64,000 nucleotides of DNA, from positions 124,001 through 188,000 of the forward strand of contig JAPTJF010000001.1 in NCBI GenBank assembly GCA_029339195.1, in the 5' to 3' direction. A model generated the notes under the pieces. That model made no database searches, had not been told where the DNA came from, and saw nothing but the letters and a program-made list of their open reading frames with translations. The DNA is from Micractinium sp. NFX-FRZ (Eukaryota; Chlorophyta; Trebouxiophyceae; Chlorellales; Chlorellaceae). Of the stretch, positions 3,001 to 63,100 are shown in pieces; the first letter of the stretch is position 1, and every line of letters begins with the position of its first letter. Position numbers and translations under genes: made by a program.

Positions 3001-4975
3001 GCCTTGGCTCTGTGCTGTGTATTATTGCCTGCTCCAGGGCACCCTGCTGGCAGCCAGCCCCCTCCGTTGCCCCAGAGATCCACACCCCTGTTGGCTCCCT
3101 CAACCCACGCCCAAGGGCGTATTCTTCTTCTTCTTCCCCCTCCGTTGCCCCTCCTCACATGGGACACCCCTGCTGCGGGTGCCTGCCTGCAGGGCGCAGC
3201 CGGGCGACGGCGACTGGAAGCTGCAGGACGGCAGCGTGAGCGCCGCCGGCACGCCCGCCCCCGCACAGCGCCCAGTAGTGACCATGGCCTCCTTCCCAAA
3301 CGAGGTGAGCTGGCACATCTGGCAAGCTGCTGGGCCTTGCCGTCTCCGCTGCCGCTGCTACAGCCTGCCCATCATCCCACACCCTCCCCGCATGCACCGG
3401 CCGCCTGCCCGCCACGCCATCGCTGCGCAGGTGCACCCCAGCCTGCGGCGGGAGGCGACTTTCAGGAAGTTGTCGGCGGAGACGTGCTTCTTCGCTTTCT
3501 ACTTTCAGCAGGTGCGGGTGTTTGCTTCTTCGCTTTCTGCTTCCAGCGGGTGTGGGTGCGGGGGCAGAATTTTGAGCAGACGCACAACATGTGCATGTAG
3601 TGCATTGAATGTGGCCACTGCCGGTGCGCTGGAAGCTTGTCCACATGCCACATGGTGCAGACCGCTTGGCACCCTGCATACATACCCCCATTTCTTCCCC
3701 AACCCGGCACAAAACATCACTCTGCCATCACGACACCCACATCCAGAAACCACGTTCCCACAGCCCGCGCTGTGCATCACCCCACACGTGTGTCCAATCA
3801 TGCTTGCAGGCCTCCCGGCAGCAGCTGTTTGCCGCCAACGCGCTCAAGGCGCAGGGCTGGCGCTTCCACACGCAGTTCAACGCGTGGTTTGCACGCCAGG
3901 TGGGGGGGGGCTGCCCAACTCACAAGCAGTCAGCATGACATGTCACAAAGTGTTCCAGGGCAGCAGGTGTGAACCTTGGGTGCAGCTCCTGCCAGGGCAG
4001 CGATGCTGTTTGCGATCTTTGAGCGGTGGTGCTTGCGATTGGCGAGCGCCCGCCCTCCTGCACACCATCGCGCCCGGCCCCCGCTCCCCGGCTGCGACTG
4101 TGCTGCAGAGCCAGCCGCGCGTGGTGACGGAGACGCACGAGCAGGGGCCTCTGATCTACTTCGATTCACTGCTGTGAGTGGTGGCAAGCACACTGGAAGT
4201 ATGTGACGCCAGCACACGAGCAGCTCCTCACCTCCCCCCGGCGGCAGCACTCCAAGCCAAATGCCAGCAGCTGTCCCACTGCCTACCTGCCCAATGCCCC
4301 CTGCCCAGCTGCCAGCCACACCGGCCACTGGCAGTGCCTGCCAGCCTGCCTCCCTGCCTGCTGGCCACTTGGCAGGCCGCAGCATCTTGAAGGACAGGTG
4401 GCACATCAACATACCCACTTACCTCTGCACATGGTCCCCTGCCCCACCCCATGCACCCCCCCTCCCTGCGCAGGCACAACGTGACGCAGCCCACCGCGGG
4501 CCTGCTGCCCGCCACGCCGGTGTACAGCGGCTGGTGCCCCCGCGTCTCCCGCCCCGACTTCCTTTTTGAGGTGATGCCCGCAAGACGGGGTGGGGCCGTT
4601 CTGAGGGAGGCCCCTGTGACTGCCCTGTGGTGATGGGGGGTTTGCAAGCTGCTGTGCGGCTGGGGTGCTGCCAGGGTGAGTGGGCGCTGCTGTGCGGTCC
4701 ATGCCGCTGCTGTGCGGCCCCGGCCCGCCACCTGCCATCCAGTGTTTGGCCCCACTGCCGCAGCTTGCACCCCACTGGCGCTGCCCTCAGCACACGTTCC
4801 TGGGGGGCGAGGACGCCCACTGCCTTCAGATGGCCTCCCTCTTTATTCTGCTCCGTGTTGCCTGCTCCTGGCACAATTTCCGTCTTTGTTCCCTTCCCTT
4901 CCTCCCTGCACTGCCTGCCCGCAGTACAAGTTCATGGAGAGCGAGGACACGCAGGCACCCAGTGACGAGCCGTGA
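26..4975 (+). CDS. CCR4-NOT transcription complex subunit 3/5 (NOT3/NOT5-like), 5' part outside window
   Basis: Scaffold subunit of the cytoplasmic/nuclear CCR4-NOT deadenylase complex, which shortens mRNA poly(A) tails. Thirteen phase-consistent exons are visible: 26-72, 294-343, 642-702, 868-957, 1081-1346, 1547-2528, 2716-2857, 3193-3304, 3431-3511, 3810-3899, 4109-4173, 4474-4570, 4925-4975 (about 710 residues plus stop). The first exons (GIDYYLACSAEE, then DFMTDESMYDTL) match the end of the NOT3 N-terminal coiled-coil domain. A long Ala/Gln/Pro-rich linker follows, mainly in exon 6. The last exons encode a NOT box: HPSLRREATFRKLSAETCFF, AFYFQQ, QGWRFHTQFNAWFARQ, HEQGPLIYFD, GWCPRVSRPDFLFEYKF. 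These match NOT3/5 rather than NOT2. The first exons lie left of the window. I infer orthology from the NOT box plus the N-terminal piece; NOT3 versus NOT5 cannot be separated. Confidence 0.88.
3485..3558 (+). repeat. Echo of NOT3 exon 9 donor end
   Basis: The end of exon 9 with its donor (TGCTTCTTCGCTTTCTACTT then CAGCAG|GTGCGGG, from 3485) is repeated almost at once inside the intron (TGCTTCTTCGCTTTCTGCTT from 3523), an offset of about 38 bp. The second copy reads CCAGCGGGTGTGGG where the true donor lies. Confidence 0.8.
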
Positions 4976-8620: not shown

Positions 8621-11600
8621 TCACGGGGCACCGTTGGCGGCTGCTGCGTCAAAGACATCTGGGCTGACTGGGCGTGCGGTGGCAGGGGTGGACACAGCGC
8701 TTGGCAGATCCAGGTCAAATGCCCGTCCTGGCGGCAGCCGCTGGCCATTTCCGGCGGGCAGCATGTTTTTAGATGCCTGACGTGGCACCAGCCTGAGATT
8801 GCCCTTGCTTGTGGCTTCAACTGCTGCCGCTGCCGCCGCTACTGCCTCGCTGCTGCCGTTGCCCAGAGACACCGCCACCTCGGGCGGCGCTGCCATGCTG
8901 GCGCCTGTGCTTGCTGAGCTGGCGGCAAAGGCTGCCATGTCAGCTGCTGCCTCCTGGTCCGCCATCATCAGCCGCAGCGCGCGCAGCGTGCCCGAGCAGA
9001 TCCCGTTCAGCGGCAGCACGCGGTGCGGCTCCTCGATTTGCACGCCTTGCCAGGGTTGCAGCGGGGGTGGGGGATTGTGGGTTGGTGGGGGTGGGGCAGC
9101 AGCGGGCAGAACGGAGTTTTTCATTCCAGATGGTTCTTTCCCCCAAAATGAGAAGTTTTGGGAAAAGAAAACGAATGGGTGCGGTCATGTGCGGATGTTG
9201 CACGGCAGGCTTGCGGCCTTGGGCTTGCAGGCAGGCTGCCCAGGTGCGCTTCCGGGAAGAACTTGTGCAGAGGTGTTTTGCAGGCTGCTGGGTGCATGCC
9301 ACCCCTCCACGGCCCATGCAGATACCTCCACAGGACGCACGGAACTCACCCACGTTCTCCAGCCCACAAATGAGGAAGGTCATGATTGCCATGATGGGCA
9401 GCGTGGCCCAGCCAAAGCGAGGCCAGAAGGCAAAGGGGAGGAAGGTGATGTAGCAGAGGATGAAGCGGTGGGTGTGGCGGTTGTAGGCGTACGGGATGGG
9501 CTGCCGAAGGATGCGCTCGCAGCCGCCGATGATGACGTCACAGTGGCTCAACAGGACCTCCAGCTGCTGCCGCTCCATGTCGGGCAAGCACGCCCGGTCC
9601 AGCAGGCGGGACAGCACCTGCGGCAGCACATCCGAAAAACTTAAAACCCCTGGGAATGCGAGGGCATGCTGAAGTTTGGTTTAAAGAACTGTCCACACGG
9701 CAGGTGGGACAGCACCTGCAGCAGCAGCATGTGGTGACGCACAAGATGGCAATACAGAGTGCTCCTTGTACTGTCCATACAACAGGCTTGGGACGGCGCC
9801 TGCCGTACCAGTGCGGTGCACCGCCGCTTAGCAGGAGGTGCAGGGCGTGGAGCATTGGGCAGCCGCGCAGCTGCACGGCGCCCGCATCTGTGTGCCCCTT
9901 CCTCTCCCTCTCATCCACCTCCACTCCTTCTGCCGCCGCCCCGCTGTCCCCCCGGCTGCCGCTTGCCTGCAGCACCGCGATGGGCGGGATGCCCCCCGCC
10001 AGACGCCGCCTGAGGAAGTCCAGCTCCTCTGGCAGCAGCACGCCTTCTAAATGATCTGCCTTTGCCAAAGCCACAGGGGAAGGTACAGTAGTAAGGCAGA
10101 GCAGGGGGGGCGCGCACTCACAGCAGCAGGGGGAGAGCAGCAGCATAGAAGGGGCAGGACAGAGAGCAGAGCAGGGTGGGCCTGCTTGTTTGCAGCCCAG
10201 AGGCAGGGGGAGGGAAGCTTCCATATATTTAGAAGGCGTACCGTCGAGGTAGTGGTCCTGCTGCCGCAGGTAAGCGGCCAGCGCGGGCAGCAGGGCGGCG
10301 GTCCAGCGGTAGAGGGCAGGCACCAGCTGTGGGCTGCCGCGCCCCACAAACGATGTGGCCTGAAGGCGGGGCGGGGGGGCCAGGCGAGAGGGGGGCAGGG
10401 GAGAGGGATGCCGGTGTTGGGCAGGTGGGCGGGGGCAGGTGGGTGACCAGACGGCAAGTAGGCAGGGGCTGGGGCAGGTGGGTGACCAGACAGCAAAGTG
10501 GGGCGGGGGCAGGTGGGTGACCAGACAGCAAAGTGGGGCGGGGGCAGGTGGGTGACCAGACGGCAAGGTGGGGCATGGATGAGGTGGATTGACGCAGTAA
10601 ACACACATAGCCTGGGCAGGCAAAGTAGGCCGGGGCTGGGGCATACCGGGCGGACACGTCGGGTGAGGAGCAGAGAGGGCGACTCCCCCTGCCCGCCACG
10701 GCCTGCCACGCTGCCTTGGCCCCACACTTTGCTGCCCTCCCTGCCCCTTCCCCGCCCGGCCGCCGTGCCACCGCCTCACCAGGCGCAGGATTGAGCGGAC
10801 GGTGATGTAGGCGCTGCCCCACAGTGTGCGCGCCTCCCACCACCGGCCTGCATGGTGGGCGGGTGGGGCAGGGGGGCACCAGTGGGCACCTTGCATGTGA
10901 GGACTTTTACCCTCTTAAGGGTGACCAAAAGGAAGGAGAAAACGAAGAAGAAGAAGAAGAAGAAGAAGAAGAAGAAGAAAAACCATGCCCCAGGTCATGG
11001 GTTGAGGAAACCAGCAGCGGTGGCCCTAGACGCCTCTTGTGGACTGACAGGACCCCATGCAGGGACAGCTTGCGCCCCGAGTGTGGGCAAGCCCCCACAA
11101 GACTCTGCCAACCCCGCCTGGCTTTGGAATCAAGCAGCCCATGCAGCTCCGGTGGCAGAGCTGTGGCAGGGCAGAGCTTACATGCCGCCAGCCAGCCAGC
11201 CAGCCAGCCAGCCATCCAGCCAGCCAGCCCCAGTAGCGCACCGTAGGACGAGTTTGTTTTGAAGAGCATGAGCAGGGAGAGGGCGAATGAGGTGAGGGTG
11301 AAGAGAGTCAGCAGCTCCATGTGCCCAGACACGTTGGGCCAGCCCTTGGGCTGCAGCCGGGGGGGAGGGGCGTGTGGTGAGAGCGTTCAGGCGGGGCGGC
11401 ACAGAGGGCGCATGGATGGAGCACAGAGCCAGGGAGGGACCGCCCAGAAGGCACCGGCGTCAGCGGCTCCGGAGGCGGTCGCGCCCAAGCATTGCCCCTC
11501 TGCCGGCGCCACGCTGTCCCCGCAACTGCTGCTCCTCCGCGCCTACCGCCGGTGGCTGCCCCCCATGCAAGCGCACCTCTGCATATGTGGCGTACAGCCC

Positions 11601-12688: not shown

Positions 12689-15600
12689 ATGCAGGGTCCG
12701 ACCGACGAAATGCCACCGCAGCAGGCGGCCGATGACGCCGAGCGGGAGGCGTTGGGCAGGTGGGCGACTCGGGTGCCGGGCCTCTGGGCCCCAGCAGACG
12801 CCACTGCAGCAGTATTGATCATCCGTGTGACCGCCCGCGCTGCAGGGTGGCCCACGCTCTGCGGCACTATCGCACCGGCGCCCTGTGGGAGGTGGAGCGG
12901 TGGGAGCGCAACCTGCAGCAGCTGAGCGTGCGCCACCGGGCTCTTGTGCCTCGCTTGCCAGACAAGGTAGGGCCTCGTACTGCAAATGAGCTCCCTTACG
13001 TGGGTGCTGGGGCGGCAGCTGGATGCCTATCGAATGAATACCAGCTGCTCGTGCAGGCCTGTGCCCCGCCTGCTCACGCTGCCTCCGCACCGTCTGCCCT
13101 CGCCTCATGCCCTGCCAGGCAGCCTGCTGCTGCACAGCCGCCACCACCTCATCTCCGTGCTCCTCACCAGTGCTTTCCGTTTCTGATGTCCCACCTTTGA
13201 TTCGTAACCTCCTTTGGCCCCACTCTCCAGCACGTTCCGCTCACCCGTTCCCACCGCCGTCCCTCCTGCCTGCACACATCGCCGAAGAGAAACAAGGCAA
13301 CTACTGTACGGGAAACTTCTCAGCCTCGTTTGCCTCGCTCCCTGCCCTGCAGATTGCCGAGGCACGGCAGTGCATCTACCGCAACCACCTGTTCCTGAAC
13401 TGCATGCTGGGGATGTTTGAGGAGGAGAGCGGGTACGCCCCTCCCCACCTGGCGCCCGCCAACTCGGCAGCGGATGAGCTGGAGGCGCGGGTGGGCGCCA
13501 GCGTGGCACCGGCGGACCACGACAAAGCAAGGTGAGGAAGAAGTGTGAAGAGATGGGCGCAGGCTGCCAGCTGGCAAACAAGGGGAGGGGATAGGCATCG
13601 GCGGGTGGTGTTGACCCGCCCTGCCCGCCCACCGCCCTGCCGCATGCGCTCCCTCCCCGCCCCGCCACCCTGCAACCCATGCGTGCGCACGAGGCTGGTG
13701 GTCCTACCGCTGATGGCGTCCAATCACACATCATGATGTCTCCCCCTTGCACGTACGTGTGCAGAAACCTGGCTGTCATGCCAATTTTTTGTTTTGTCAG
13801 AACTGCCCCCTCCCTTGCAAGCATGTGCTCGAGAACCTGGCTGTCTTGCCAACGTTGTGTGTGAAAAAGCGTTCCCCTCCCTTGCAGGTATGTGCTCAAG
13901 AACTTGGCGCGCGACTGGTCAGAGGAGGGCGCAGCGGAGCGGGAGCAGTCGTACGGCCGGCTGCTGAGCGAGCTGCGCCGCCTGCTGGGCGGGGCGGGGC
14001 GCCCCGGTGGCGGAGGCATCACAGCGGGCAGCGCAGAGCCGCCCAGTGTGCTGGTGCCGGGCTGCGGGCTGGCGCGGCTGTGCCTGGAGATCACAAACCT
14101 GGTGGGTGGTGTGGGATGTTGTTGATCGTGGTTGTATGGCTGTCTGGCTGGCGGTTGGCTGGGGAGGCAAGCTCACTGCGGTGGCTGGATGGTAGACCAC
14201 TCGGTGTGTGCGGGGCGCCGTGCACAGCCAGCGCTGCAAGCCGGTTGCTAGCCCTCCGCTGTGGCCGCACCCACCCACCCACCCCGTCTGCATCCCCCAG
14301 TTCCGCCTACGCCTCTTCTCGCACCCCTGTACAGCCCCCAGGTCCAGGGCTGGCTTGCCTCGTTTATACCCCATCCCAAATCGGTGTCAAGCTCATCTGC
14401 AGGGCTTCCAGGCCCAGGGCCGCACACACTCCCCCTGACTCGCATGCCCCCTCACTCACCCACCCACCCACCCACACCCTCTGTCAAGCTCACCTGCAGG
14501 GCTTCCAGGTGCAGGGCTGCGAGTTCTCCTACTTCATGCTCCTCACAAGCGCCTACATGCTCAACGGAATAGACAGGCCGCTGCAGGTGCGGGGAACTGG
14601 TCGACTGTGTCACTCCCTGTGCATCTGGAATGTTCACTGCGCTGCACGTGCAGGATCCGAGGAGTTGCATGCAACTGGGCCTGCCGCAGTTGTAAGAGGA
14701 GTAGTGAATTCACGGCTGTTTGGTGCTGCACTGCCGCGTTGCTGCCCGCGGCTGTGGCTGCTGCTGTACTTGCCTGCCTGCCGTCCGTCTGCCCACCCAC
14801 CAATCTACATGGGCCCTCTGCCTGCCCTGCCCTGCCCCTGCCCTTCGCGCACCAACCGCAGTGGACGATCCACCCCTGGGCGCACAGCAGCTGCAACCAG
14901 CTGAGTGCGGAGGATCAGCTGAGGGGGGTGCAGATCCCGGACGTGCATCCAGCCGACCTGGTGCCAGGTGGGGGGTGACACTGTAGGGCCAGGCGCGTGT
15001 TTGTGTGTGTGTGCGTTTGGGGCGTGGGGGGGGCGGGGGTTCAACTGGGTATGGCGTGTGTGTGCAGGTCCTGCTCCCCAGCTGACCTGGCGCCAGCTGG
15101 GCAAGCGGCAGCAGGGCCAGGCGGGGTGGCAAGTGCAGGCACCAGTGGGAGGGGACCGGTGAGGGGCATGCTGCCCTCCTGGCATGCATGGTAGGTGGGC
15201 AGGAACATGGTTTGGGGCCCGCGCGGCTGGCATTGTTTGCACATACTTCTCAAACATCGACTCTTTCCTGCATATCGCCACAGGCTCCACCCCTTCTCTC
15301 AACCGGGTGCACTGGCTGGGGTCGTTGACACCTGGGGTGCCCCCGTGCCTGCAGGGCCGGGCCTGCTGAGCATGTCTGCGGGCGACTTTGCTGAAGTGTA
15401 CCGCTCGCCAGAGTACGCAGGTTAGGCGGCAGTACCAGCAGTACCAGCAGTGCCCATGCATTGTCGTGAAGCCCTGGCAGCTGCCCACCGCGCAGCACAG
15501 CATGCACAGCACCTAAACATGTCGTGCTCGACTTGGCGGCACACTGTTGCGGCAGGGGTGCCTTCTGAGCTCCCCAGTGCTCATCCACAAAGCACCTGTT

Positions 15601-22400: not shown

Positions 22401-22709
22401 CCTGACTCGCCCCCCGCCTCCCCGTGGGAACGGCACAGCGCCCACGCCCCGCTCACCGCCCCCCGGAGCCGCCCCACAGCTGTCACCTCCCGGCGTCATC
22501 GTGATCCCTGGGACGCCCCCGGGCAGCAGCCCGCCCCCTGCTGAGGGGGGAAACCCGCCGGTGGACAACGGTGCCCCGGCGCCAGCCCCCACTGACACGG
22601 CCGCCCCTGCGCCAGCCCCCACTGATGCCCAAGCCCCGGCGCCGGGCTATATCGAGGTTGGAGGCGGCGGCAAGCCACCTGGATCTGTGGAGGGACAGGG
22701 AGGTGAGGG

Positions 22710-22757
<48 letters not shown>

Positions 22758-50100: not shown

Positions 50101-53100
50101 GACGGCCCGGGGGTGCGCGAGAAGTTCTCTGCCGCCTACTATGCCATGACCGACGGCTTCCTGGTGAGCCAGTTCTGCATGGGAGCGAGTGGGAAGGTAA
50201 CGGGAGAGAGGCTGAGGAGTGAGAAGAGGTGGCGCTGTGGGACTCTCGGCCCCAACTGTACACGTCTCCTGGTGACGAGGCCTGCCTCCCGCTGTACTTT
50301 CTAGTGTCCAGTGCACCTCTTTCTGGGCGGGGAAGGGGAGGGGTCCACGGTGCTTTTTAGTGTGAAACGACCGCTGTAGTTTTGGTGAGGAGCCACCCGG
50401 TGCGTTGCTAGGTGGGCAGGATGAGGGGAAGAGGGAGGAGGGCATCCAGGCGCTGCCCTGCCGGACAGTGCCGGTTGCCCACGCCAGCGTGGCCCCTATG
50501 GCTTGGTCACCACGCCAGCCAGATCCCACGAGCCAGTTCTCTGCCCTCGCCCCTCCTGTCAGTTTGATTCCTCTGGTGTGTCCGTCTGCCCTCCCTGCCC
50601 CGCCGCCTGCAGCAAGCCCTTCCCCGTCTGCCTGCCCAGCCAGCCTCCTCACCGCCCCCGCCTGCCTCACCCCTCCTGTGCCTTGCATATGTTTGCCGCC
50701 ACTCTGTCCCCGCAGGCCTTCCCCATCTGCCTGCCGGGCACGACGGTGTGGCGGGCGCGCAAGGGGCGCATCTACATCCACAAGGTGCTGAAGGAGGCGG
50801 CCAGCCGGGCGCGGGAGTACATTAAGGTAAGCCTGGCTACAGCTAGCTGCATGAGTATGACTTTAAGCTTTAGCAGTACTACTGCACCCCCGAAAGAGAG
50901 CTGTGGGGCGTCCGTGAAGGTAAGCTTGCCTGCTTGCTATGTGTGAGTGATTGCACCCCTGGAGCAGTGGTGGGGTGGGCGTGTGCATGACAGTGAACCT
51001 GCTGTCTGTGCACGGCAGCGAAGAGCGTTGGTGCCTCGTGCACTTCTGGGCCTTCAGCATGGATTCCACATGTGATCAATGGTGGAGCTGTCTCACGTTT
51101 GTGATGCACAGAATGGCAGCGCGCCTGGGTGCATCGTGCACTTCTGGGCTGGAAGTGTGGATGATTAGCAATGTTGGAACTGTCTCATGTATGTGTTTTG
51201 CAGAATGGCGGCGAGCCTCGGTGCCTCATGGACTTCTGGGCCCAGCGGTGCCTCGAGGAGATTGCAGAGGCAGAGGCGGAGGGGCTGGTGAGCCTGCACT
51301 GGGCAGGGGCACCGTGCCTTTGTGCAGCGCCCGCGTTCCGCTGCATCTGCCTTGTGGCTGGCAGGCCGCAGGCGCCCCCCTGCAGCTGCCCCCAGCCACA
51401 CCGCACTGACCGCAAGGTGGGGCACGCCATGCCCCTCCCGTTTCCTCTGCACCGACTCCCTGCCCTCTCCCCTCCACTCCCCTTCCTGTCCTACCCGCCT
51501 GCAGCCGCCCCCCAGCCACACCACAGAGCACAAGATGGGGGACGCCATGATCCTGTTCCTGTTTGCCTCCCAGGACGCCTCCACCGCCTCCCTCGTGTGG
51601 TCCCTCACCCTCATGGCGGACCACCCAGACGTGCTGGCAAAGGTGGGCTTGCCAGCACAGCCTGGGTTGTCACGACAAGCAGGGCGGCGAGGTTCTGCCG
51701 AGTTCAGGGTGTGGCTGGCAGTGCTTGCGGCCCGCTTGGGACGGCCCTTGCCTGAACCGTCCCTCCCACCTAGCCCTCGTGGGGTGCCCCTCCATGGGCA
51801 CCCATCCCTCATGCCTAGGTGCTCTGCCTGCCTCCCGCCCTCCTGCAGGTTCGTGAGGAGCAGCAGCGGCTGCGGCCCGACCCCAAGGCCAAGATCTCGG
51901 GGGAGGTGCTGGCTGAGATGCAGTACACCCGCCAGGTGAGCACGCGTACTGCCTGTCGGGGCGGTGTGTTGCCATGTATGCGCCCATGGTGCAACCGCCC
52001 GGGACGCCACGTCAGCCCGAGGTGAAGGGGGTAGGTGCTGGGGGGGTGCAGTGCACCCGCCAGGTTGGCCACGCTGTGCTTGGTTGCCCTGGGAGTGTTC
52101 TGCAAATTGCGGGCACCTCCACAGGCAGGTGGCCCACGCCACTGCGTGTTCATCCTCGACCTGCCTGACTGCTCCACCCGCTCTGCGTGCCGCTGAGCTT
52201 CCAAAGGGGGACCCTGGGCCTGCCCTCCTGCCGCCTTCCTGCCACCTTCCTGCCTCCACATCACACCTCCCTTCTGCCCCTCAACCACTGCCCCGGGGTG
52301 GCACGAGCCCTGCCCCCCTACCAACACGTGTGTCTCAACCCGTGCTGCTGCCCTGCAGGTCGTGAAGGAGCTGCTGCGCTACCGTGCGCCCGCGCCCATG
52401 GTGCCCCAGGTTTGTGTGAGGGGCTGGCACAGCTATGTGGCGGCAGCGTGACGCTGCACCTGCGTTACAGATGCCTGGAACGGTGGGGGGGGTGGCATGC
52501 ATGCTGCAGGCCGGCAGGCGGGAGCTGGAGCAGCAGCACTGCCGCTGTGGCCCCTGCACTGGCGCACCCCCTGCTGGTCCTGCCCTGTCCCCACTAACGA
52601 CCCCGTTGTACTGCCTGTTGCATCGCTGCCCGCCAACCATCACTGCCTGGCAGCCCTGCTGTACCGCCTGCTCACTGTACTGCTGCCGTGCCACTGTACC
52701 GCTGCACTGCTGTACTGCAGATGGCGTACGACACCTACCCCCTGACCGAGGACTACTCCATCCCCAAGGGAACCCTCGTCTTCCCATCCATCAACGCAGC
52801 AAACATGCAGGTGCGTGCACACGCCTAGCCTCCAGAGTGTGGTCTTCACGACACTGCACGGAGAGGCATGCACAGCCGAACTTCCTCTTTGAGCTGAGGC
52901 CTCCAGCGTAGCCTAGCCTAGTGTGGTCTTCACAACATTCCTCCGGGAGGCATGCACAGCCCACATGCCTGCATGTGTGGGGTGCCTGCATCTGGGGCTA
53001 GCGCCTGTGCTGGCAGTAACCCTGCCATCTGACCTGCCCAAGCCAGCCAAGCTGCCTGCCTGCCTGCCTGCCACCCTTCTGCATGCACCCCAGGCTGACT

Positions 53101-54159
53101 GGGTGACATTGCAGCTAGCATTGCTCAAACATCAGCATTGTGCATGCAACAGGCGTGTGCTGTTATTGCTGTTAGTGCCCCCGCAGCGCTCCCCCAGCGC
53201 CGTTGCTCAGTCGTCACGCGTGCATGTGTGTGTGTGTGTGCCATGTGTTGTGCCTCCCCCTCCCGCAGGGCTTCCCCAACGCAGAGGCCTTTGACCCCGA
53301 CCGCATGGGCCCCGTGCGCAAGGAGGACATCCACCACTCCAAGAACTTCCTCACGTTCGGATACGGCCCCCACTACTGCGTGGGTGAGCGGGGCAGCCCG
53401 GAGGCCGGCTGGCACGCGAGGGGGGAGGGCGTGGTGGGCGCAGCGTGCCCCCACGCTGCTCAATTCATACTGCCCCAAAAGTGCTGCTGTGGGAACCCAC
53501 TCGTGCCCCCCTGTGCCACCTCTGAGCATGCCCTCTCCCCTCCAGGCAAGAAGTACCGCTGGTGCGCTCCCTCACTGCACCACCTCTGAGCGTGCCCTCC
53601 CCCCTCCTTGCTCCCCCCCCTTCCAGGCAAGGAGTACGCCATCAACCAGCTGGTGCTCTTCCTCTCCATCGTGTCCCTGGAGTGCGAGTGGGACCGCCAG
53701 CGCACGCCCAACTCGGGTGCGTGGGCAGGGGCCCGCCCTGATGGGCCGGCAAGGGGAGCACAGCTGGGTTTTGTGGCGTGGCATTGCCGTCTTAACAGCC
53801 GGCAGCAATGGGGTCCGCACGGGCTGGTCAGCCACCCGGCAAGGGAAGCACCGCTGTGTGTGTGTCATGCAGTCACACCAGTCCTGCCATGCAGTCACAA
53901 CAGCCGGCAGGACTGGTGTGACCTTCGGAGGATGTGTGACCTCTTTGAGTGCATCTTACCCTGCTGCCCTCATGCTGCCTGAACCATGCCCGCCCACTCC
54001 ACGTCCCCACCTCCTGCCCCTCCTGATGCCCCCCTCGTATGAACGCATGCACTCCCTCCCCCTTTTCCCCTCCTCCCCCTGCCTGCAGACCTGTGGAAGT
54101 ACCTGCCCACCATCTTCCCACACGACTCCCTCATCTCCCTGCGCCCCCGCGCCCAGTGA
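47188..54159 (+). CDS. Cytochrome P450 CYP710 family, sterol C-22 desaturase
   Basis: CYP710 enzymes introduce the C-22 double bond in the sterol side chain (ergosterol, stigmasterol) at the ER. Sixteen phase-consistent exons: 47188-47223, 47496-47656, 48012-48084, 48536-48650, 48993-49180, 49417-49493, 50052-50163, 50716-50826, 51204-51287, 51505-51642, 51849-51935, 52359-52409, 52721-52810, 53269-53383, 53627-53716, 54089-54159; 532 residues. An N-terminal membrane segment (GSLLLYASAATGAYALY) precedes LVPGPDRVTPFLGG. CYP710 traits: FLSLFTRKALSTYTALQ, NTSQDVFVGPYLD, PICLPGT, PRCLMDFWAQ, I-helix LFLFASQDASTASLVW, VREEQQRLRP, ExxR in KELLRYRAPAPMVP, YPLTEDYSIPKGTLVFPSI, FDPDRMGPVRKED, haem loop FGYGPHYCVG (Cys about residue 478), EYAINQLVLFLSIVSLEC. 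The domain is intact. Its introns are unusually rich in exon-end copies. Confidence 0.94.
48314..48565 (+). repeat. Two echoes of CYP710 exon 4 acceptor end
   Basis: GTGATGGACCCGTACTCGTT, CTGGGAG (true exon start 48536) is preceded by ATCATGGACCCCAACTCCTT, CTGGCAG (about 48316) and CAGGTGATGGACCCCGACTC, CTTCTGGGAG (48421). The second copy retains a CAG acceptor and the exon reading frame for eight codons. Confidence 0.9.
48875..49026 (+). repeat. Echo of CYP710 exon 5 acceptor end
   Basis: CCCCTGTTTGTCAACTCTGC, GCAGACAATGTGCCGCAAGC, TGATGGCCG (from 48878) copies the true junction CCCCTGCTTGTCAACACTCT, TCTGCAG|ACAAGTGCCGC, GAGCTGATGGCGG (exon at 48993), about 92 bp apart. Confidence 0.9.
49481..49702 (+). 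repeat. Four-copy tandem of CYP710 exon 6 donor end (about 57 bp unit)
   Basis: GGACAACGTCAG|GTGCTGCC (true donor 49494) is followed by three further units beginning GGACAACGTC near 49539, 49596 and 49648, each with GTG...CTTGTGCTCA-type downstream sequence. Several units rebuild both an AG acceptor (CTTGCAG) and a GT donor. Confidence 0.92.
50996..51245 (+). repeat. Three-copy array ending in CYP710 exon 9
   Basis: Copies near 51014 (AGCGAAGAGCGTTGGTGCCT, CGTGCACTTCTGGG), 51110 (CAGAATGGCAGCGCGCCTGG, GTGCATCGTGCACTTCTGGG) and the real exon 51204 (AATGGCGGCGAGCCTCGGTG, CCTCATGGACTTCTGGG). Period about 96 bp; the flank CTGTCTCA(C/T)GT also repeats. Confidence 0.9.
51377..51562 (+). repeat. 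Echo of CYP710 exon 10 acceptor end
   Basis: CCTGCAGCTGCCCCCAGCCA, CACCGCACTGACCGCAAG, GTGGGGCACGCCATG (from 51379) copies CCTGCAG|CCGCCCCCCAGCC, ACACCACAGAGCACAAG, ATGGGGGACGCCATG (exon at 51505). The copy is bounded by CAG and AAG|GTGGGG, so it could splice as a 33-bp micro-exon. Confidence 0.85.
51903..52065 (+). repeat. Echo of CYP710 exon 11 donor end
   Basis: GAGGTGCTGGCTGAGATGCA, GTACACCCGCCAG|GTGAGC (donor 51936) recurs about 127 bp on as TAGGT GCTGGGGGGGTGCA, GTGCACCCGCCAGGTTGGC with a donor-like GT preserved. Confidence 0.7.
52829..52968 (+). repeat. Intronic tandem duplication, CYP710 intron 13
   Basis: AGTGTGGTCTTCACGACACT ... GGAGAGGCATGCACAGCC and AGTGTGGTCTTCACAACATT ... GGGAGGCATGCACAGCC, about 85 bp apart. 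Not obviously derived from an exon. Confidence 0.85.
53510..53640 (+). repeat. Echo of CYP710 exon 15 acceptor end
   Basis: CCACCTCTGAGCATGCCCTC, TCCCCTCCAGGCAAGAAGTA, CCGCTGG (from 53516) copies CCACCTCTGAGCGTGCCCTC ... TTCCAG|GCAAGGAGTACGCC (exon at 53627), about 64-80 bp apart. The copy keeps a CCAG acceptor at the haem-loop junction. Confidence 0.88.
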
Positions 54160-55559
54160 GCTCTGCTGCCGAAAGCGCTGCTGGAAGGGCACGCACAGCA
54201 GCAGGCAGCCGACTGTGCGGCTGTGCCTTCGACGCCGGCGGGGGCAGGCACTGCAGGCAACCAGCGCCGGGAAGGGGGTGATGCGCGGGCTGACCAAGTG
54301 CTTCGCTCCCGCCACGCCCCCGCCCCCGCCGGTCGCTGCCGCACGGCGCACCAGACGCCACCGCAGCTGCACCCCACCTGCACCTCCGCCGGAAGGCCAG
54401 TGCGACCGTAGGACGTCACACAAGGCACGTCACAGCCGGCCCCTGCCCGCCATTGCTACCCGACCGCTGCCCAGCCAGCAGCCAGGCACCCCCCAGCCAG
54501 CAACGGTGCCCACACACCACGCGCCGCTGCTGCAGAACAGAACGAACCGCACCCCTGCACCCTTCCCCTGTCCACTCCATCTCATTGCTAGCACCCCTGT
54601 GCCCGTGCATTGCTAGCCCCCCCCCCCCGCACTGCCTCCCCTCCTTTGCTCCGCCTTCCCTCGCTCTCCGGTGCGCCCTGTCCTGCCGGCAGGGCAAGCC
54701 ATCTGTTCCCCTACACACTTGCCTTCTCCACGCACTCGGCGGCGGCAGGTCGGTCCCCACCTGCCGGCCGCATGGCGCCCTCGCCCCGCCTCCTTAAATG
54801 TGTGTTGTGCGCGCCCCCGTCTGGCCGGCGCAAAGCCTCTGCACTGCCATTGCTTTTGATTGGTTGACTAGTTGCCAAATGGTGCCCACCCTCCCCTTTG
54901 CTACGATGCTGCTGCTCATCTTGCCTTCCCAACGCCTCACGTGCGCCCCTGCTTCATGACCCATGTGTCCTGCTGTGTGCACGTTTCACGTCCCCATTCT
55001 CAGCATCCACGCGTGCTCAAGATACCATGCATTCCACGGTGCAGCCGTGTAAAGCACAGGACGGCGCAGTTTGGGATGGGTGGGGTGAGCAGCCAGACGT
55101 GGTGGGGCAGCACTGCTGGCGGCGGTGGTGCGACCCCAGCCCTCCTTCTCCCCTCTCCTTCCAACAACGCCTCATTGGAAATCGGGTTCTCTTGAACGGC
55201 GGCTTGAACCGTGTACTGCACCTCTGCAGCTCCACAGACAGAAGGGCTCTTGAGCGAGGGGGCACCCTGCAGGGGCGCCTTGTCAAGACCCTCTATCGGA
55301 GCTCGATTCATTGCGCGGAACGCTTGCAATTCGTCATCAGTCACGATATCAAGTGAGCCCCTGCTAGCTTGCTAGCCAGAGTTGCCGCCGGCGGCTAAAA
55401 TTTCCGCTGGCACTGCTGCTGCCTGCCTGTGCAACTGATAATTTCACTTGAAGCTCCCCCGACCAATTGGCACAGCTAACACCGCTGCAAAGTCAAGAAC
55501 GGGACTCCGCCGCCACCGCCGCCACTTGCCGCTGCTGGGTGGACGCGTGTGCTGGGACG
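54160..55559. other. Intergenic, CYP710 to MOCS2A
   Basis: 1.4 kb, tandem orientation. Probably a long C-rich CYP710 3' UTR (TGTAA at 55048) and the MOCS2A promoter. An open frame at 55000-55344 (-) lacks an ATG start and has no recognisable family; not called. Confidence 0.5.
55048..55052 (+). other. Candidate TGTAA poly(A) signal for CYP710
   Basis: TGTAA about 890 bp after the CYP710 stop; the only clear one I noticed in this gap. Confidence 0.3.
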
Positions 55560-56169
55560 ATGGACGTGCGGGTGCTGTTCTTCGCGCGCAGCCGAGAGCT
55601 GGCGGGTACAAGTGAAGCGACGCTTACCGTACAACTTGGCAGCACGACGGCGGCGCTGATGCGGCAGCTACTAGAGCAGGTGGGGCGCCCAGACGCTGCC
55701 ATTGCCGCCGCTGCCGCTGCGGCCGCGCCGCTGCCGATGCTGGCGCTGCCGCTGCTTTGGGCCGTGTGCATCGCTTCGTCCGGCACCAAGCCCTCGGGGC
55801 AGCGAGGGCCCGTCATGCAACTGCTTCAAAGTAGCGCCGTGATACGCCACGCTTCACTGTTGCGCCCACAGCTTCTTCAAACCCTAGCCACCACGTGCCC
55901 GCCCTTCCACCCCATCTCGCCCGTGCCCTGCAGCACCCCTGAAGCACAGAGGTTCAGGACAGCTTCGTGCTCAGTCCGATTCACAAGAAATCACACCTGT
56001 GCTCGCCCTTCCCCAACCCCTGCACGTGCCCATGCAGTACCCCCAGCTTGCGGAGCTGCAGGGCAGCTTTGTGCTCAGCCTGAACCAAGAGTACCTGGCG
56101 CCCGGGGAGGAGCAGCAGCTCAAGGCGGGGGACGAGGTGGCAGTCATCCCGCCCATCAGCGGCGGCTAA
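55560..56169 (+). CDS. MOCS2A: Molybdopterin synthase small subunit (MOCS2A / MoaD-like)
   Basis: Ubiquitin-like sulfur carrier that, as C-terminal thiocarboxylate, supplies sulfur to molybdopterin synthase in the cytosol. Two exons, 55560-55679 and 56038-56169; 83 residues, the normal family length. Start MDVRVLFFARSRELAGTSEA has the conserved MoaD opening (VLFFAxxRELAG); the end AGDEVAVIPPISGG carries the required C-terminal Gly-Gly. Middle NQEYLAPGEEQQLKAGDE matches as well. Intron phase 0. The large subunit MOCS2B is not adjacent here, so the bicistronic arrangement of animals is not used. The intron carries a decayed copy of the exon 2 start. Confidence 0.94.
55926..56095 (+). repeat. 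Echo of MOCS2A exon 2 acceptor end
   Basis: CTGCAGCACCCCTGAAGCAC, AGAGGTTCAGGACAGCTTCG, TGCTCAGTCCGATTCACAAG (from 55928) copies ATGCAG|TACCCCCAGCTTGC, GGAGCTGCAGGGCAGCTTTG, TGCTCAGCCTGAACCAAGAG (exon at 56038), about 105 bp apart. Confidence 0.88.
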
Positions 56170-57118
56170 GCCCCTGCGCCCAGTGGGCGCCTTCCCAGGC
56201 GGGGCAGCAGCTGCCGGCTGGCTGACCCGGGGGGGAAGGCCTGCCCTGAGGGGCGCTACCTGGCAACATGTTTGAAAGCCCAGCTCCCACCCGTGCCCCA
56301 CTTCTTGATCCTAGTGATTCCCTTGCCTGGCTTCCTCCCAGCTTCATCCACGTGCCACAAATTGCCCCCCTTCTGCGTGTGCCCCAGATGTTCTTGTTGT
56401 GGCGGCGCGCGAACTGAGCTTGTAATCTCGCGAGTGATGTGAGACATTGGCCCAGCGGACTTCTCTTAGGCACGCAGGGAGGCGCACAGTAGGCATGCAG
56501 CAGTGTTGTTTTCATCGTGAGTGGGGAGATCCACAGTGCTGTCCAGAGGTTGCTGACTTCAGTGTGCTCTTCAATGTGCCGCTCATGCTGGAGGGTGCGT
56601 GCCACCAAGCGACCCGCCTGTTCCCTTACCGCCTGTCCCCTGAACTTGCCTCTGCCTGCTGACAGCGGCATCACCATTGGAGTTTCACACTCGCAATCAA
56701 AAGCATGGGTGCCTGTGGCCGGCCGATTTGTTTTCCCGCTTGACAAGGGAGACACAGCGGCAGCGAGGCTTTGCCGTGGCGGGTCACGGCAGCTCGTCCC
56801 TTCCGATCTATGCCCATGCTGCGCCCCTCCAACCACATGGCCTCCCGCAACCACATGGCCTCCCATTTTCACATTGTGTCACGTGTGCCAGAATTTTCAA
56901 ACTTACTGCCCTTTGCAAAGCTCATCGCCAGCTCTGCAGGGCATGGCCAGGCTGGCGACCGCCCCGCCGCCAGCGCAGCGAGCCGCGGTGTCCCAAAACA
57001 CTGGGCCTCTGCGTGGCCCAGCACGCGCTCCTTCATCCGTGGCTTCCTCCGATCACCACTTTCTCCACGACAGAAGCACAGCGCAGCTGCAGCGCAAGGG
57101 TTGCCGGTCGGAGAAGTC
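56170..57118. other. Intergenic, MOCS2A to ATP synthase d
   Basis: 949 bp, tandem orientation. Holds a TGTAA at 56421 and presumably the ATP synthase d promoter. A small direct repeat CAACCACATGGCCTCCC occurs twice near 56830-56865. No gene seen. Confidence 0.5.
56421..56425 (+). other. Candidate TGTAA poly(A) signal for MOCS2A
   Basis: TGTAA about 250 bp after the MOCS2A stop. Confidence 0.45.
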
Positions 57119-59168
57119 ATGCTGCGCTCCCTGGCGGTTCGGGCGGCGCGCAGGGTGAGTCATGGCGCTTCAACGCGTAGGCAGCTCTCGAGGGGACCGG
57201 ACCCACGCCCTGACCGTGCCCATGTCACCCTGCAGGGGAGCGCCCTGGCGGTGCAGCAGCAGCGGTGCTACGCCGATGCCGCTGTGGCGACGCAGGCATC
57301 CGTGTGGGATGAGCTGGGGGAGCTGGTAACCAGCGACGAGGGCAGGCGCGAGCTGGCCACGCTGCGCAGCGTGTACGCCGAAGTTGCGCAAAAGCTGGCG
57401 GCACAGGCCAAGGTGGGCAGCTTAGGCGCCGGGGATCGCCGCGGGGGTCGCGTTGGCGCCTGGTTTCAGCGCTGCTTGGAAGCGGCGGCGGGGCGGGAGG
57501 CGGCAGGGGTGGCAACTTTACGCCCTGAGTATTGTCCCACTGTGTCTTGTTGCTGCTGCAGCCCATGGAGCCCATCAACTGGGAGAACTGGAACAAGGAG
57601 GTGGACCCCCGCCTGGTGCAGCAGTTCAAGCAGACATATGACAGTGAGTCGCACCTGCAGGCAGAAGCTTGCCCCCGCGTGTCGGTGGGCAGGCCTCGAG
57701 AGTGGAGTGCTGTGTACCGGGAGGGAGCAGCGGCAGCGGCTGCAGTGAGGCGAGGAGGGCCGCATGCTGCAGCATGCGACGCAGCAGGCCGCCTGCAGCA
57801 GCGGGTGGAAGCATGACAGGCGCCGCCCTGCAGCTGCCGCACGTGGCACCATCTTGCTTGCACCCCCACCCACCTCTCACTGCCCTGCCTCTCATCACCC
57901 ACCTTGCCTGTCGTCCACCCCAGCCATCAAGCTTATCAAGCCCGCCGGCACTGAGTTTAAGCCCGCCCTTGTGTCGCCCCTTCACCAGCCTTGGACAAGG
58001 AGCAAGGCACCGACTGCTGCCCGCCCCTTGCCTGCCTGCCCCCCTGCGCTGCCCACTGCAGCCATGAAGTTCCCCAAGTACGATGGCAAGGATGTGGAGG
58101 AGGCGGCAGCCAAGTTCTCGGAGCTCATGAAGGAGGCGGAGGGCGTGGTGGCGGCCTCCCAGAAGCGCATCACGGAGCTCAAGGTGGGGCGGCGGGGGGC
58201 TGCCCGCTTGCCACGCGCTGCAGCGGGATGTGGGGCCTGCAGTGGGCGGTTTTTTGTACGGCTGGAGGGTGCGGCCTGGGGCCATGCACCTGCTGCAGTG
58301 CAGCTGCGCGGGATCCCAACACCAAGCTCTCAGGGCAGATGTGGAGGGGGGCAGGGGGAAGTGGTTGGCTGTGTTGGGCGAGGCGGCAGCATGGCGTGCC
58401 TGCTGGGCCGCCTGCGGATGCTGTGGGTCAGCCACGCGCACGGCGGGTGCTGCCATGGCCACCTGCACTCAGCCACACCCATCACTGTGTTGAATCCCGG
58501 CTGAACCGGTGCTTTTTGGTCTGGTTTGTTGCGGCCCAATGTTAGCATCCCAGCGGGAGAAGGAGTTGCCTGCATTCCCCTGCTAGTGTACTCAGCCGCT
58601 TCACTCAACGACACGCATCACTGTGCTGATTGATTTCCGTGGCCATGGGTGCAGGCCGAGATTGCCAACATCCAGCGGGAGAAGGAGCGCATTGCCACCA
58701 CCACCATTGACGATGAGCTGGCAGCGGACCCCGCCATGGCCAAGGTGGGGAGCATTGGCTGCTGTGGATGTTACAAATGAGGCAGGGGGGCGGAGGCACA
58801 GAATTGGCGGGCAGCGGGTGCGGCTGGACGGTGGGCGTGGCGGGGCAGAGAGAAGGGCATGCAGTGGGAAGGACGTTTCCCAATTGCCCTGGCAGCAGCG
58901 GTGCCATGTGAAGTGTTGCTGGAGCTTGGCAGCAGGCTGGGGGCATGCGATGAGGAGATGGGACACGAGGTGTGTGGGGGAAAGGGCCAGCACAGCCTCC
59001 GGGCGTAGTCAGCTGCCGGCGGGGCTGCTTCTTGGCGAACGAACACGCTGGCCGATGCGTGGGCCTGTATGCCTGCTCACCATGCTGCCATGATGCCATG
59101 CTGTGTGTGCTGTGCTGCAGGAGGTGGACGATGAGGTGCAGAAGAACTACTTCATGGTGTCCAACTGA
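57119..59168 (+). CDS. Mitochondrial F1Fo ATP synthase subunit d
   Basis: Peripheral-stalk subunit of mitochondrial ATP synthase. Six phase-consistent exons: 57119-57154, 57236-57412, 57562-57643, 58062-58183, 58655-58744, 59121-59168; 184 residues. The first 25 residues (MLRSLAVRAARR, then Gln/Arg/Ala) are a mitochondrial presequence. The plant-type subunit d pattern is visible: SVWDELGELVTSDEGRRELA, EPINWENWNKEVDPRLVQQF, YDTMKFPKYDGKDVEEAAAK, EAEGVVAASQKRITELKAEI, and the acidic end LAADPAMAKEVDDEVQKNYF. A sequence at 57925 that resembles the exon 4 start (ATCAAGCTTATCAAGCCCGC) is judged an intronic copy rather than an exon, because using it makes the known family spacing worse. Confidence 0.85.
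58477..58695 (+). repeat. Echo of ATP synthase d exon 5 acceptor end
   Basis: Intronic GTTAGCATCCCAGCGGGAGA, AGGAG (about 58541-58565) copies GCCAACATCCAGCGGGAGAA, GGAG in the exon starting 58655; the upstream flank CATCACTGTG(T/C)TGA also occurs twice (58479 and 58616). Confidence 0.75.
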
Positions 59169-59559: not shown

Positions 59560-59586
59560 AACACACACACACACACACACACACAC
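59560..59586. repeat. (CA)n microsatellite
   Basis: About 13 CA units in the 3' flank of the ATP synthase d gene. Confidence 0.92.
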
Positions 59587-60131: not shown

Positions 60132-63100
60132 CTAGGGCATGGCGTGTGCCTCCGCCTCTGCTGCCAGCCCCAGGTCCTCCCCCACCATGCGCACTGCAAT
60201 AGGGTGATAGTTGGGCCGCTGCTCGCGGAAAATTGACAGCGCGGCGCCCCGTGCTGCCGCGCTCTTGCTGGACTGGAGTGCCCGGAAGAGCTTGCGCAGG
60301 TACCTGCGGGCAGGGTGCGGTGTGTGTGTGTGTAGGGGGGGGAGCGGGACAGCAGCAAAGAGTCATGGAGGTGCAGAGAGGAGTGGGGGCAGGAGATGGG
60401 CGGGGTGTGCCAGCTGGCGCCACCACACAGCCCAGCCTGAGGGGGCTTTGTGCTGCTACTGCTGCTGCTGTCGTTACAGCTCGTCACATCCCCAGGAAAA
60501 AAGGATTGAACTTCGGGACCAACCATATCCTGAGAGGTTGACGAGGCATGCACCTTGTGCCGCTACTGCTGCTGTGGCATTGGCTGTTCGCCGGAGCAGG
60601 CAGGCAGGTGGAGGCCGGACCCACCTCACGCGCCCTTGCTCCTTCAAAAATGACTCCACGTGCGGCAGGATGGCGTCGTCGCCTGCAGCATAACGTGCAC
60701 ATGGCACCACACGGCAACAGCGGGGAAAGGGGTTAGACAGGAGTGAGGATGCTGCAAGCTGTTGACAGGCTGGCGCCCCTCTCTGCCTGGCACCCCTCAT
60801 CAGCGTGCTGCACAACTGTGCCAGCCGCCGACACGCACGCTGCGCAGTGCAGCAGCACAGCACAGCACAGCACAGCACAGCACAGCACTTGAGCTCGCGC
60901 CTGGGCTGGGCTGGGCTCCTGGTGCAGTATATGACAAGCATATATATGACAAGCATGATGAGGCTGCGCACGCTGTGTGGCCAGCCCTCACCGGCGTTGA
61001 TGCACAGCCCGTACCAGCTGGTGCGCAGCTCAGAGTTGCGTCGGCCGTCAAGGGAGTACAGCTGGCCCAGCCTGCAGGGCAGGAGTGCAGTGGCAGGAGT
61101 TCAGTGGGCGGCCAGGCGGGCCGCCAGGTGGCGGCGATGACGGAAGCAGAGGACACGCAGGGCGAGGAGGAGGGGTGGCTGGGCAGCAGAGCGCGAAGCT
61201 GGGACTGAAAAAAGAAACGAGTGCTTGAGGAGATTGCCTTGTGGGGGACACCTCGTTCCTGCCAGCGCCTGCCATGTGCCCGTGCGCACCAGGGCGCCGA
61301 GCGCCACCTGCGTGCCTGCCTCCCTGCACGCCTCCCCCCCCCACACACACCCAGCCCAGGCATGACGCTGCCTCACTTGCGGGTGATGGCGGGGTGCAGG
61401 GGCTGCAGGGAGCGCAGCTCCGCAAGCTTGTCCACAAACGCCAGCAGCTGGACAGGGAAAATAGACACCACAAAAGTTGAGTGCTCACACAACACAAGCA
61501 GCTGGGGAGGGGACAAATAGAAATTGAAACCACAGAAGGTGAGTGCTCCACGAGCAGCTCTGCCAGCTTGTGCACACATGCCAGCAGCTGGCGGAAGGGG
61601 GCACTCGAACTTGAAACGTTTTCATCAACCACAAAAGCTGAATGCTCAACCACAAGCAGCTTTGCCAGCTTGCCCACGCACGCCAGCAGCTGTTCGGAGA
61701 AAGCGGAAGGAACATCAGTACATTAAGAAACGGTGAAGGGCGGAAGGTGAGATTCCTGGCAGAGATATCCAATTGATTGTCCGGAGTGGGTGAAACCCAG
61801 GCGTGAGGCGGGGCTTGCGAGCGCGGCAGAGCGCAGTGCAGGACTTGGGGGGTGCGCTATTGTACCACTCCAGCCTGCTGGGCCAGGCCCGCAGCCAGGC
61901 CCGCAGCCATGGCCAAGCACCCCGGTCACGCACACAAACGCGCGCGGCACGGGGGGAACACGGGGAGGCGGGCTCCCCGCGCTCAGAGGCGCGGCACTTT
62001 GAACGCGCATACACACACGCACACACACACACCTGTACCGTGCTCCAGCCATCAATGTCGGCCGCCGATGCCCCCGCTGGTCCCTCGCTGCCGATGCCCA
62101 TGACGTCCGATGTGTGCCACCTGCATTCGCCACCAGCGGGGAGGCTCTCGTGCACTGGTCGGCACCAGCTGGCAGCAACAGTCATGGCGCCGGCCTCCAG
62201 CTGGGCTGGTACCACCAGAGCAGGGGGCTGCATATGAGGGGGCTGTGTAATCTGCACAGTTAGGCAGGAGGAGGGCGGACGGGGAAGCATGCCCAAGGCA
62301 CGGCTGGCAGGGGTGCCCGCCCGCCTCCCTCACCGCTTCGCCAGCTCATATGCCTGCTGCGCCAGGCTTTCATCGTATCGGTTAGTCACGGGAGGCATGC
62401 CTGCGCACGAAGCGGCAGCGAAAGCAGCAGCAGCAGCAGCGGAGGCAGACGGTGGCAGCCGCCAGTGATGTAAACTGAGCAGGAGGAGGATAGCGAGTGG
62501 GCATGCAGGCAGGTGGGCAGGCAGGTCCTGGGCTGCCCACAGATGCCAAAGCTCTTCCTGGTGCACCGCTGCGGCCCCACCAGCCAGCATCAGTTTGCCT
62601 CTGGAGACACAGAGCACCAACCCACTGCGTGCCCACACTGGCACATATTCCACCCACACACACCCACACACCCACGAACCCGGGGCGTACAGCCAGGCCT
62701 GCCAGTCCACCGCCGCCACCCCCGGCTCGCCCTGGAAATAGGAGCAGTAAAACTGCCGGAATTCTTCGCTGGTGACGGGGTGGGAGGCGAAGCGGCGCAG
62801 GTAGGAGCGAAAGAAGGGCTCAAAGCGGGAGGGGCCACCCGCCGCCTCCTGCAGGTGGTGCATGAAGGCAAAGCCTGCAGGCAAACACAGGAGAAAGAAC
62901 AAATGACTCGTTAGTTTCACGATTTCGCGGCGTGCCTCTATTAAATAACGGCGCAGGGGCCAGGCCAGCGCTGCAGAAGTGGCGTGCCATGTAATGCACA
63001 GGAGGGGGTGTGAAGGCGAAAGGTGCGGGGCGGGGCCTGAAGCAGGCAAGGCTGGAGGGAATTGGGCAGCAGGGGGTAGGAGGCCCGAGCGTTGCAAAGT

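Follow-up and report, generated by a model that had tools for sequence, protein, structure and literature searches.

Why should the introns of ordinary algal genes contain imperfect copies of the ends of the exons beside them? The question is raised by a stretch of 64,000 nucleotides from the green alga Micractinium sp. NFX-FRZ (GenBank assembly GCA_029339195.1, contig JAPTJF010000001.1, positions 124,001 to 188,000 of the forward strand), referred to below as the window, in which a preliminary description had noted such intronic echoes in at least nine genes. The analysis described here shows that the excess of exon-edge copies in their own introns is real and far above chance. The earlier interpretation, frequent short tandem duplications across exon-intron borders that leave decoy splice sites behind, is partly supported, and its core holds. 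With high probability, junction-spanning duplications persist because splicing at the outer site yields the original mRNA, and the inner copy decays. To our knowledge, the lengthening of introns in small genomes is poorly documented.

Sample and gene models

The sample consisted of 344 kb, the 64-kb window and 280 kb from three other contigs (200 kb of C2, 40 kb each of C30 and C120), taken from an assembly of 66 Mb in 838 contigs. Genes were modeled ab initio with a generalised hidden Markov model gene finder whose training on the 344 kb used no labels. The training settled on 618 GT-AG introns with a median length of 244 bp and on the splice consensus AG/GTGAG for donors and TGCAG/G for acceptors; GC stands in place of GT in 18 of the 591 predicted donors of introns of at least 80 bp. 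Ten of the 21 predicted window proteins were scanned against Pfam, and the expected family was found in all ten (NOT3, bestrophin, CARME, TAP42, ankyrin plus kinase, P450, ThiS, ATP synthase d, LTA4H C-terminal, and Med8). The closest named proteins come from the Chlorella clade (Micractinium, Chlorella sorokiniana, C. vulgaris). Orthologues of the methyltransferase and CYP710 are 73-88% identical to the window proteins, and their alignments match the gene models except for small errors. In two of these errors the model puts a micro-exon within a decoy copy of CYP710 (48421-48423 and 49540-49550), a warning for annotation, as decoy exon edges whose splice sites look functional are easily taken for micro-exons.

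Genes with fewer than three exons or fewer than 450 coding bases were excluded from the junction tests, introns below 50 bp from the ungapped exon-edge test, and introns below 80 bp from the gapped search and later analyses. The gapped search begins 25 bp past the junction and is blind to most offsets below about 65. Four copies in the gene g6, which are coding minisatellites, were dropped from the echo counts, from the codon-position, mismatch-direction, multi-decoy and clustering analyses, and from one part of the identity survey; they were kept in the own-intron test, the gapped search, the contiguity and frame counts, the random-placement comparison, the tally of ungapped junction offsets and the 50-bp window comparison, and the g6 introns were retained in the denominators of 591 introns and 1182 junctions. 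Positions 21600-24300 of the window were masked or dropped in the offset-density, direct/inverted and complexity-filter analyses, in the other part of the identity survey, and in the count of intron bases.

Exon edges recur in their own introns

The window contains 89 direct local repeats (offset 13-500, score at least 18) as compared to 0 in each of four control offset ranges; when offsets were extended to 600, one control range gave 1. Coding minisatellites at 21.7-24.2 kb make up 44 of the 89. Elsewhere, 101 such repeats were found in C2 (0-2 per control), 21 in C30 and 33 in C120 (controls 0). When exon edges were compared without gaps to the intron they adjoin, 63 of 1212 matched at a score of at least 14 (g6 included), as opposed to 1/1190 for a non-adjacent intron of the same gene, 1/1212 for an intron of another gene, and 0/1212 for the own intron reversed. 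A lack of such an own-intron excess was what the preliminary description had named as refuting it, and the description passes this test; both ends of the intron contribute as originally described, with 31 donors and 32 acceptors.

A gapped search that included 25 bp of intron flank gave a score of at least 18 at 99 of 1182 junctions, with 5.1 expected. Exon sequence is included in 97 of these 99 matches and the splice site is crossed in 86 of the 97. The splice site, said at first to be always part of the copy, is thus nearly always so; the remaining 11 copies end 1-31 bases before the junction or cross it by 1-2. With the g6 copies left out, echoes are carried by 93 of 591 introns, spread over 35 of 66 genes. 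Their density varies among contigs from 9% to 30% (19/111 introns in the window, 48/354 in C2, 5/55 in C30, and 21/71 in C120; p 0.004), and they cluster by gene, the dispersion exceeding that of all 2000 shuffles. One gene at C120:27740-38211, which, judged by its motifs, is presumably that of a P-type calcium ATPase-like protein, has an echo in 13 of its 26 introns.

Mobile introner-like elements, or a dispersed family of intron repeats, would also place related sequences in many introns, and introners are reported chiefly from fast-evolving lineages such as green algae (PMC9860276). This genome lends them no support: all-versus-all blastn of the 591 introns returned 25 matches, none longer than 62 bp among the best 15 of the 25, the 66-Mb genome contains no other full copy of either of two echo-bearing introns, and similar introns at many loci were not found among those compared. 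The present copies resemble introners in their effect on intron content in algae but, unlike dispersed families, are local to each junction, and a mobile origin has a negligible probability.

Orientation, size and placement of the copies

The copies are tandem duplications in direct orientation, contiguous for the most part and as a rule 80-160 bp long. Direct local repeats number 200 and inverted ones 10 (score at least 18, not deduplicated). In 69 of 97 pairs the extended alignments of the two copies leave a gap of at most 15 bp, the extensions being generous. In the ankyrin kinase gene, two 101-bp units (41816-41916 and 41917-42015) abut with no gap, and two 147-bp units (39305-39451 and 39453-39598) are separated by 1 base. 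In the other 28 of the 97 pairs, more than 15 bp in which no homology was detected lies between the copies. These pairs, together with a 57-bp inverted copy in a neighboring CYP710 intron, would be expected if the copies were insertions made by template switching or end-joining repair from the nearby exon edge rather than true tandem duplications. Such a process would also predict many inverted copies; the direct orientation makes it unlikely as the main route and the contiguity of most pairs speaks against it, leaving it a small share of the probability. Tandem duplication is retained as the more likely origin.

Among junction pairs outside arrays in the ungapped set, 32 of 40 lie at offsets 80-159, somewhat beyond the spacing of 40-150 bp first given. 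Corrected for opportunity, the excess amounts to about 12 per million position pairs for offsets of 80-139 and is close to zero past 250. Intron-intron pairs of like size occur at 6.7-9.1 per million and intergenic pairs at about 3 (three high-scoring segment pairs, HSPs, per bin). At score 12, with 50-bp windows and targets 70-170 bp away, the excess is 11.7% for donors, 13.0% for acceptors, 9.0% for intron interior and 2.2% for intergenic sequence. Since intron-intron and intergenic pairs of the same size exist, the duplication process is not confined to junctions. The exon share of the unit has a median of 0.48 at donors and 0.35 at acceptors with a wide spread, as random placement gives. 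Aligned copies are 67-94% identical, and at least two decoys are found at 19 junctions.

When pairs were placed at random (minisatellites included), 32.9 junction-spanning exon-intron pairs were predicted and 57 seen; exon-interior pairs numbered 27 against 40.3 predicted, and intron-intron pairs 103 against 86.8. No hotspot at junctions is claimed, because slower decay of pairs in which one copy is constrained can explain the excess. A firm lower size limit at offset 80 was considered and rejected. Without a complexity filter, 13 exon-intron pairs were seen at offsets 20-79 against 41 expected from intron-intron pairs. The filter removed most of this contrast (0 seen vs 5.0 expected at score 13, offsets 20-59); it discards the majority of short intron-intron pairs and also penalizes long ones heavily. 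Bias of the gene finder, assessed in silico, is modest, with clean recoveries of 18-27 out of 28 at offsets 20-60 and 22-28 out of 28 at offsets 80-130. The size reported is that of the 80-160 bp class, with no firm lower limit. Junction echoes with offsets of 20-59 on the four contigs comprise five donors and 0 acceptors (score 12, no complexity filter); short echoes at donors only would fit a need for the branch point inside the acceptor unit.

Probable survival and decay of the inner copy

The proposed course of events is as follows. Short tandem duplications, mostly of 80-160 bp, would arise in genes through a lesion that may be replication slippage or end joining. A duplication spanning a junction would give the gene two equal copies of that splice junction. 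If the spliceosome used the outer copy, which adjoins the remainder of the exon, the mRNA would stay unchanged and the event would be near neutral; the inner copy would turn into intron, lengthening it by one unit. The inner copy would then decay neutrally while the exon copy was held by selection, and repeated events at one junction would leave two or three relics. Duplications in the interior of an exon would have to keep the reading frame and junction-spanning ones would not; intronic copies of splice sites would survive because this rule does not bind them. Selection would in this way filter the duplications. Of all this, the data show the excess of copies, their position next to their own exon, the direct orientation, the contiguity of most pairs, the neutral decay of the inner copy, the slower exon branch and the lengthening of introns by one unit; the splice site used, the lesion and the filter are inferred.

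Reading frames agree with such a filter. The offsets of 86 junction copies, taken modulo 3, are distributed 31/28/27 with no frame bias, while 30 of 38 exon-exon repeat offsets are multiples of three (coding minisatellites included). The corresponding counts are 45/103 for intron-intron pairs, inflated by minisatellites called intron, and 10/28 for intergenic pairs. Mismatch between exon and decoy is flat across codon positions (0.200, 0.192, and 0.185 in 82 pairs), and its direction is skewed: from exon to decoy, GC to AT changes number 108 vs 43 opposite at codon position 3, and AT to GC changes 128 vs 48 opposite at position 2. The decoy drifts toward intron composition.

The decoys often keep a usable splice site, as had been noted, and might therefore function as alternative exon edges, in which case selection would have preserved the duplicated splice sites. 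About half of them score above the 10th percentile of real sites (20/42 donors, 19/39 acceptors). That fraction equals the neutral expectation, however (0.47 and 0.48), and the dinucleotides themselves are retained much as neutral decay predicts, GT in 24/42 decoy donors (0.65 expected) and AG in 30/39 decoy acceptors (0.71 expected). As retention matches the neutral expectation, no sign of selection for or against decoy splice sites was found in the 42 donors and 39 acceptors. The lack of frame preference, the flat mismatch across codon positions and the compositional drift likewise argue against alternative edges; a kept frame with coding constraint on both copies was not observed in these junction copies. 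In the two genes whose orthologues were checked, methyltransferase and CYP710, the echoed peptides YVLKN, GFQVQG, and VMDPYSFWE occur a single time in the orthologous proteins. Functional alternative edges are therefore held to be very improbable, and neutral decay of the inner copy is preferred.

Junctions with several decoys provide a view of the order of events. Mean identities at the 19 multi-decoy junctions are 0.836 between exon and nearer decoy, 0.808 between exon and farther decoy, and 0.732 between the two decoys, giving uncorrected branch lengths of about 0.044 for the exon vs 0.12 and 0.15 for the decoys. Such a star with a short exon branch, to which there are exceptions, points to repeated duplication from the same edge and to a slowly evolving exon. 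The claim that copies diverge in step with distance was not borne out, the nearer decoy being closer to the exon at 11 of the 19 junctions, the farther at 6, with 2 equal. Error-prone copying, by which copies would be diverged at birth, was suggested by the flat mismatch across codon positions and by the similar identities of the exon and intron parts; it is disfavored by the short exon branch and the compositional drift, both of which favor ordinary decay with a constrained exon.

Several observations weigh against the proposed course of events. The gene models are ab initio, use of the outer splice site is inferred from reading frames and orthologues, and the duplications are read from this one genome; a search of viral and genomic contigs with one CYP710 protein turned up no algal DNA. 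The 28 pairs lacking visible contiguity have been described. An excess of third-position mismatches is absent though the exon should change synonymously. The exon and intron parts of the copies are about equally identical (0.807 and 0.834) where the intron part was expected to be lower; a second estimate gave 0.80-0.81 for the exon part and 0.77-0.83 for the intron part over a control floor of 0.63-0.69 in shifted windows, a method-biased comparison. Young copies are also scarce. None of 55 junction HSPs with an offset of at least 60 reaches 98% identity and 4 reach 95%, the 98% level being attained by 2 of 20 pairs that lie in exons only and by 1 of 37 intron-intron pairs. More young copies would be expected from steady neutral production, and a past burst, assembly collapse or early selection against fresh decoys may be responsible. 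Collapse would produce this scarcity, and to that extent it fits an assembly artefact as the source of the copies themselves; copies with the observed range of identities, present on four contigs and respecting gene structure, are hardly compatible with one, and the chance of an artefact is minute.

Intron length and intron origin

Introns with an echo have a median length of 364 bp and those without 235.5 bp. Subtraction of the unit or units brings the former to 243 bp, and the difference (p 4e-17) falls to p 0.24. Echo introns are thus longer by about one unit, in accord with the lengthening put forward in the preliminary description. Its further statement that duplication is a main route of lengthening is not proved by the share of intron bases in detectable local copies, 11,458 of 171,766 (6.7%) vs 884 (0.5%) at a control lag, a share that is a lower bound because older copies fade. 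Introns may grow in quanta, 80-160 bp duplications copying exon edges into them from both ends, such that most intron sequence is the decayed remnant of such copies; this is a tentative extension, and we consider it rather less likely to be right than wrong. If true, past duplications could be read from each intron, the constrained exon edge serving as reference.

The copies might instead mark the birth of introns by tandem duplication of coding sequence (the Rogers model), in which case the intron would equal the repeat period and the donor window would be repeated at the acceptor. Similarity between an intron's own donor and acceptor windows is indeed found in 14 of 591 introns at score 14 (1.3 expected) and in 7 at score 18 (0.0 expected). 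Most echo introns are far longer than the repeat period, though, and the 7 include several short introns next to tiny exons, apparently errors of the gene models. With 7/591 introns of this kind, intron gain by tandem genomic duplication was rejected as the general account, and its probability is put very low, a little below that of functional alternative edges. Four introns with donor-acceptor similarity (C2:111110-111200, C120:5571-5661, window 32815-33017, and C2 138654-138774 on the reverse strand) are candidates for birth by duplication, or gene-model errors.

Relation to known systems

Internal gene duplication and tandem genomic duplication have reportedly been treated as a source of introns by Gao and Lynch in 2009 and by Hellsten et al. 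in 2011, work that may contain part of the present finding. A 2007 study, cited among the references of PMC3488318, is said, to judge by its title, to concern tandem copies of splice-site-bearing sequence; unlike the alternatively spliced introns named there, the present copies seem to be unused and to evolve neutrally. The open literature covers intron gain by tandem duplication. In the case outlined in a review (PMC3443670), duplication of an AGGT-containing exonic segment gives rise to a new intron. Both there and here a short within-gene tandem duplication occurs and splice sites are drawn from the duplicate. What is duplicated in the alga, however, is the junction of an intron already present; the intron becomes longer and the copy, which seems to go unused, decays as a decoy. 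In Drosophila, 5 of 31 novel intron positions are attributed to tandem duplication (PMC2891723). In those cases too, exon sequence was duplicated and one copy then intronised; here, in contrast, a relic can still be seen in 93/591 introns, and nothing implies that an intron changed position. The junctions with at least two decoys, and one with four copies at 49482-49690, are like minisatellites, though mostly a single copy has been added and constraint acts on one member, the exon edge.

Among the open papers listed, judged by titles and the openings of abstracts, junction-duplication relics are not described as a common feature of introns. The finding falls within a known mutation type, of which it is a dense and measurable variant. 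With the exon edge as a reference built into each gene, the age, size and fate of duplications, as well as the decay of unused splice sites, can be measured within one genome.

Echoes in individual genes of the window

Echoes are present in all nine genes originally named. They are clear in NOT3, bestrophin, methyltransferase, ankyrin kinase, CYP710, MOCS2A, and LTA4H, and weak in TAP46 (scores 18-19, a level at which about 5 of the 99 matches are expected by chance) and ATP synthase d. NOT3, on the forward strand, has a real donor junction at 3485-3520 (exon 3431-3511; gene model, Pfam), followed by a decoy donor at 3523-3558 (offset 38, 89% identical, GT kept). At the other end of an intron, a decoy acceptor at 4781-4819 (offset 134, AG kept) precedes the real acceptor junction at 4915-4953 (exon start 4925). 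In bestrophin, on the reverse strand, the real acceptor junction at 9602-9698 (exon 9350-9617; gene model, Pfam) is contiguous, with a gap of 1, with a decoy at 9700-9780 (offset 98).

The methyltransferase gene, on the forward strand, has two echoed acceptors and one echoed donor. The acceptor junction at 13874-13908 (exon start 13888; gene model, orthologues) is preceded by a decoy at 13807-13841 (offset 67, AG lost at the matching position) and by a weak outer decoy at 13739-13773; that at 14483-14556 (exon start 14500; gene model, orthologues) is preceded by a decoy at 14386-14467 (offset 97). The donor junction at 14949-15068 (exon end 14967; gene model) is repeated at 15078-15203 (offset 129). 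The weak pair of TAP46 (score 19), also on the forward strand, consists of a real donor junction at 32192-32316 and a decoy donor at 32319-32420 (offset 104).

The ankyrin kinase gene lies on the reverse strand and has three echoed acceptor junctions. That of exon 39251-39341 (39305-39451) is copied as a contiguous tandem unit of about 147 bp (39453-39598), that of exon 41236-41333 (41315-41435) at 41449-41572 (offset 134), and that of exon 41755-41842 (41816-41916) in the exactly adjacent 101-bp unit (41917-42015), the two copies being 83% identical. LTA4H, on the same strand, has a real acceptor junction at 61414-61460 (exon 61377-61447; gene model) with decoys at 61554-61600 (offset 140) and 61656-61702 (offset 242).

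CYP710 lies on the forward strand. An outer (48311-48356) and an inner (48420-48465) acceptor decoy precede the real acceptor junction at 48532-48577, the peptide of which, VMDPYSFWE, is the one seen once in orthologues. A further acceptor decoy lies at 48848-48953 (offset 91), its real copy being at 48935-49050 such that the extensions overlap. The real donor junction at 49482-49538, with the donor after 49493 according to orthologues and the gene model wrong here, is followed by three more copies at 49539-49690 with periods of 57, 57, and 52. Farther on, an acceptor decoy at 51077-51149 (offset 92, AG kept; an extra weak copy at 51023-51052) precedes the real acceptor junction at 51169-51241 (exon start 51204; gene model, orthologues), and the real donor junction at 51919-52024 (exon end 51935; gene model) is repeated at 52047-52163 (offset 128). 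The 57-bp inverted copy in the introns of this gene occupies 49723-49779 and 50625-50681 and is 93% identical.

The genes in 47188-59168 of the window follow in the order CYP710, MOCS2A, ATP synthase d. In a C. vulgaris record, P0125, a single protein of 805 aa contains CYP710, a MOCS2A-like stretch (as read from the alignment) and ATP synthase d. P0125 is probably a fused gene model, and the gene order seems to be shared with C. vulgaris. In MOCS2A, on the forward strand, an acceptor decoy at 55922-56000 keeps TGCAG; the real exon edge is at 56025-56097, where an acceptor after 56037 is suggested by the MOCS2A-like part of P0125 and not by the gene model. The ATP synthase d gene, on the same strand, has a weak intronic echo of exon 58655-58744 at 58526-58574, the real copy being at 58646-58700.

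Two further repeats lie apart from the junction echoes. The coding minisatellites at 21690-24240 of the window, with 30- and 42-bp units, belong to a gene for a proline-rich protein, and part of them was apparently called intron by the gene finder. At C2:190738-191338 two arms of 288 bp, separated by a 25-bp spacer, form an almost perfect inverted repeat (score 280.5).

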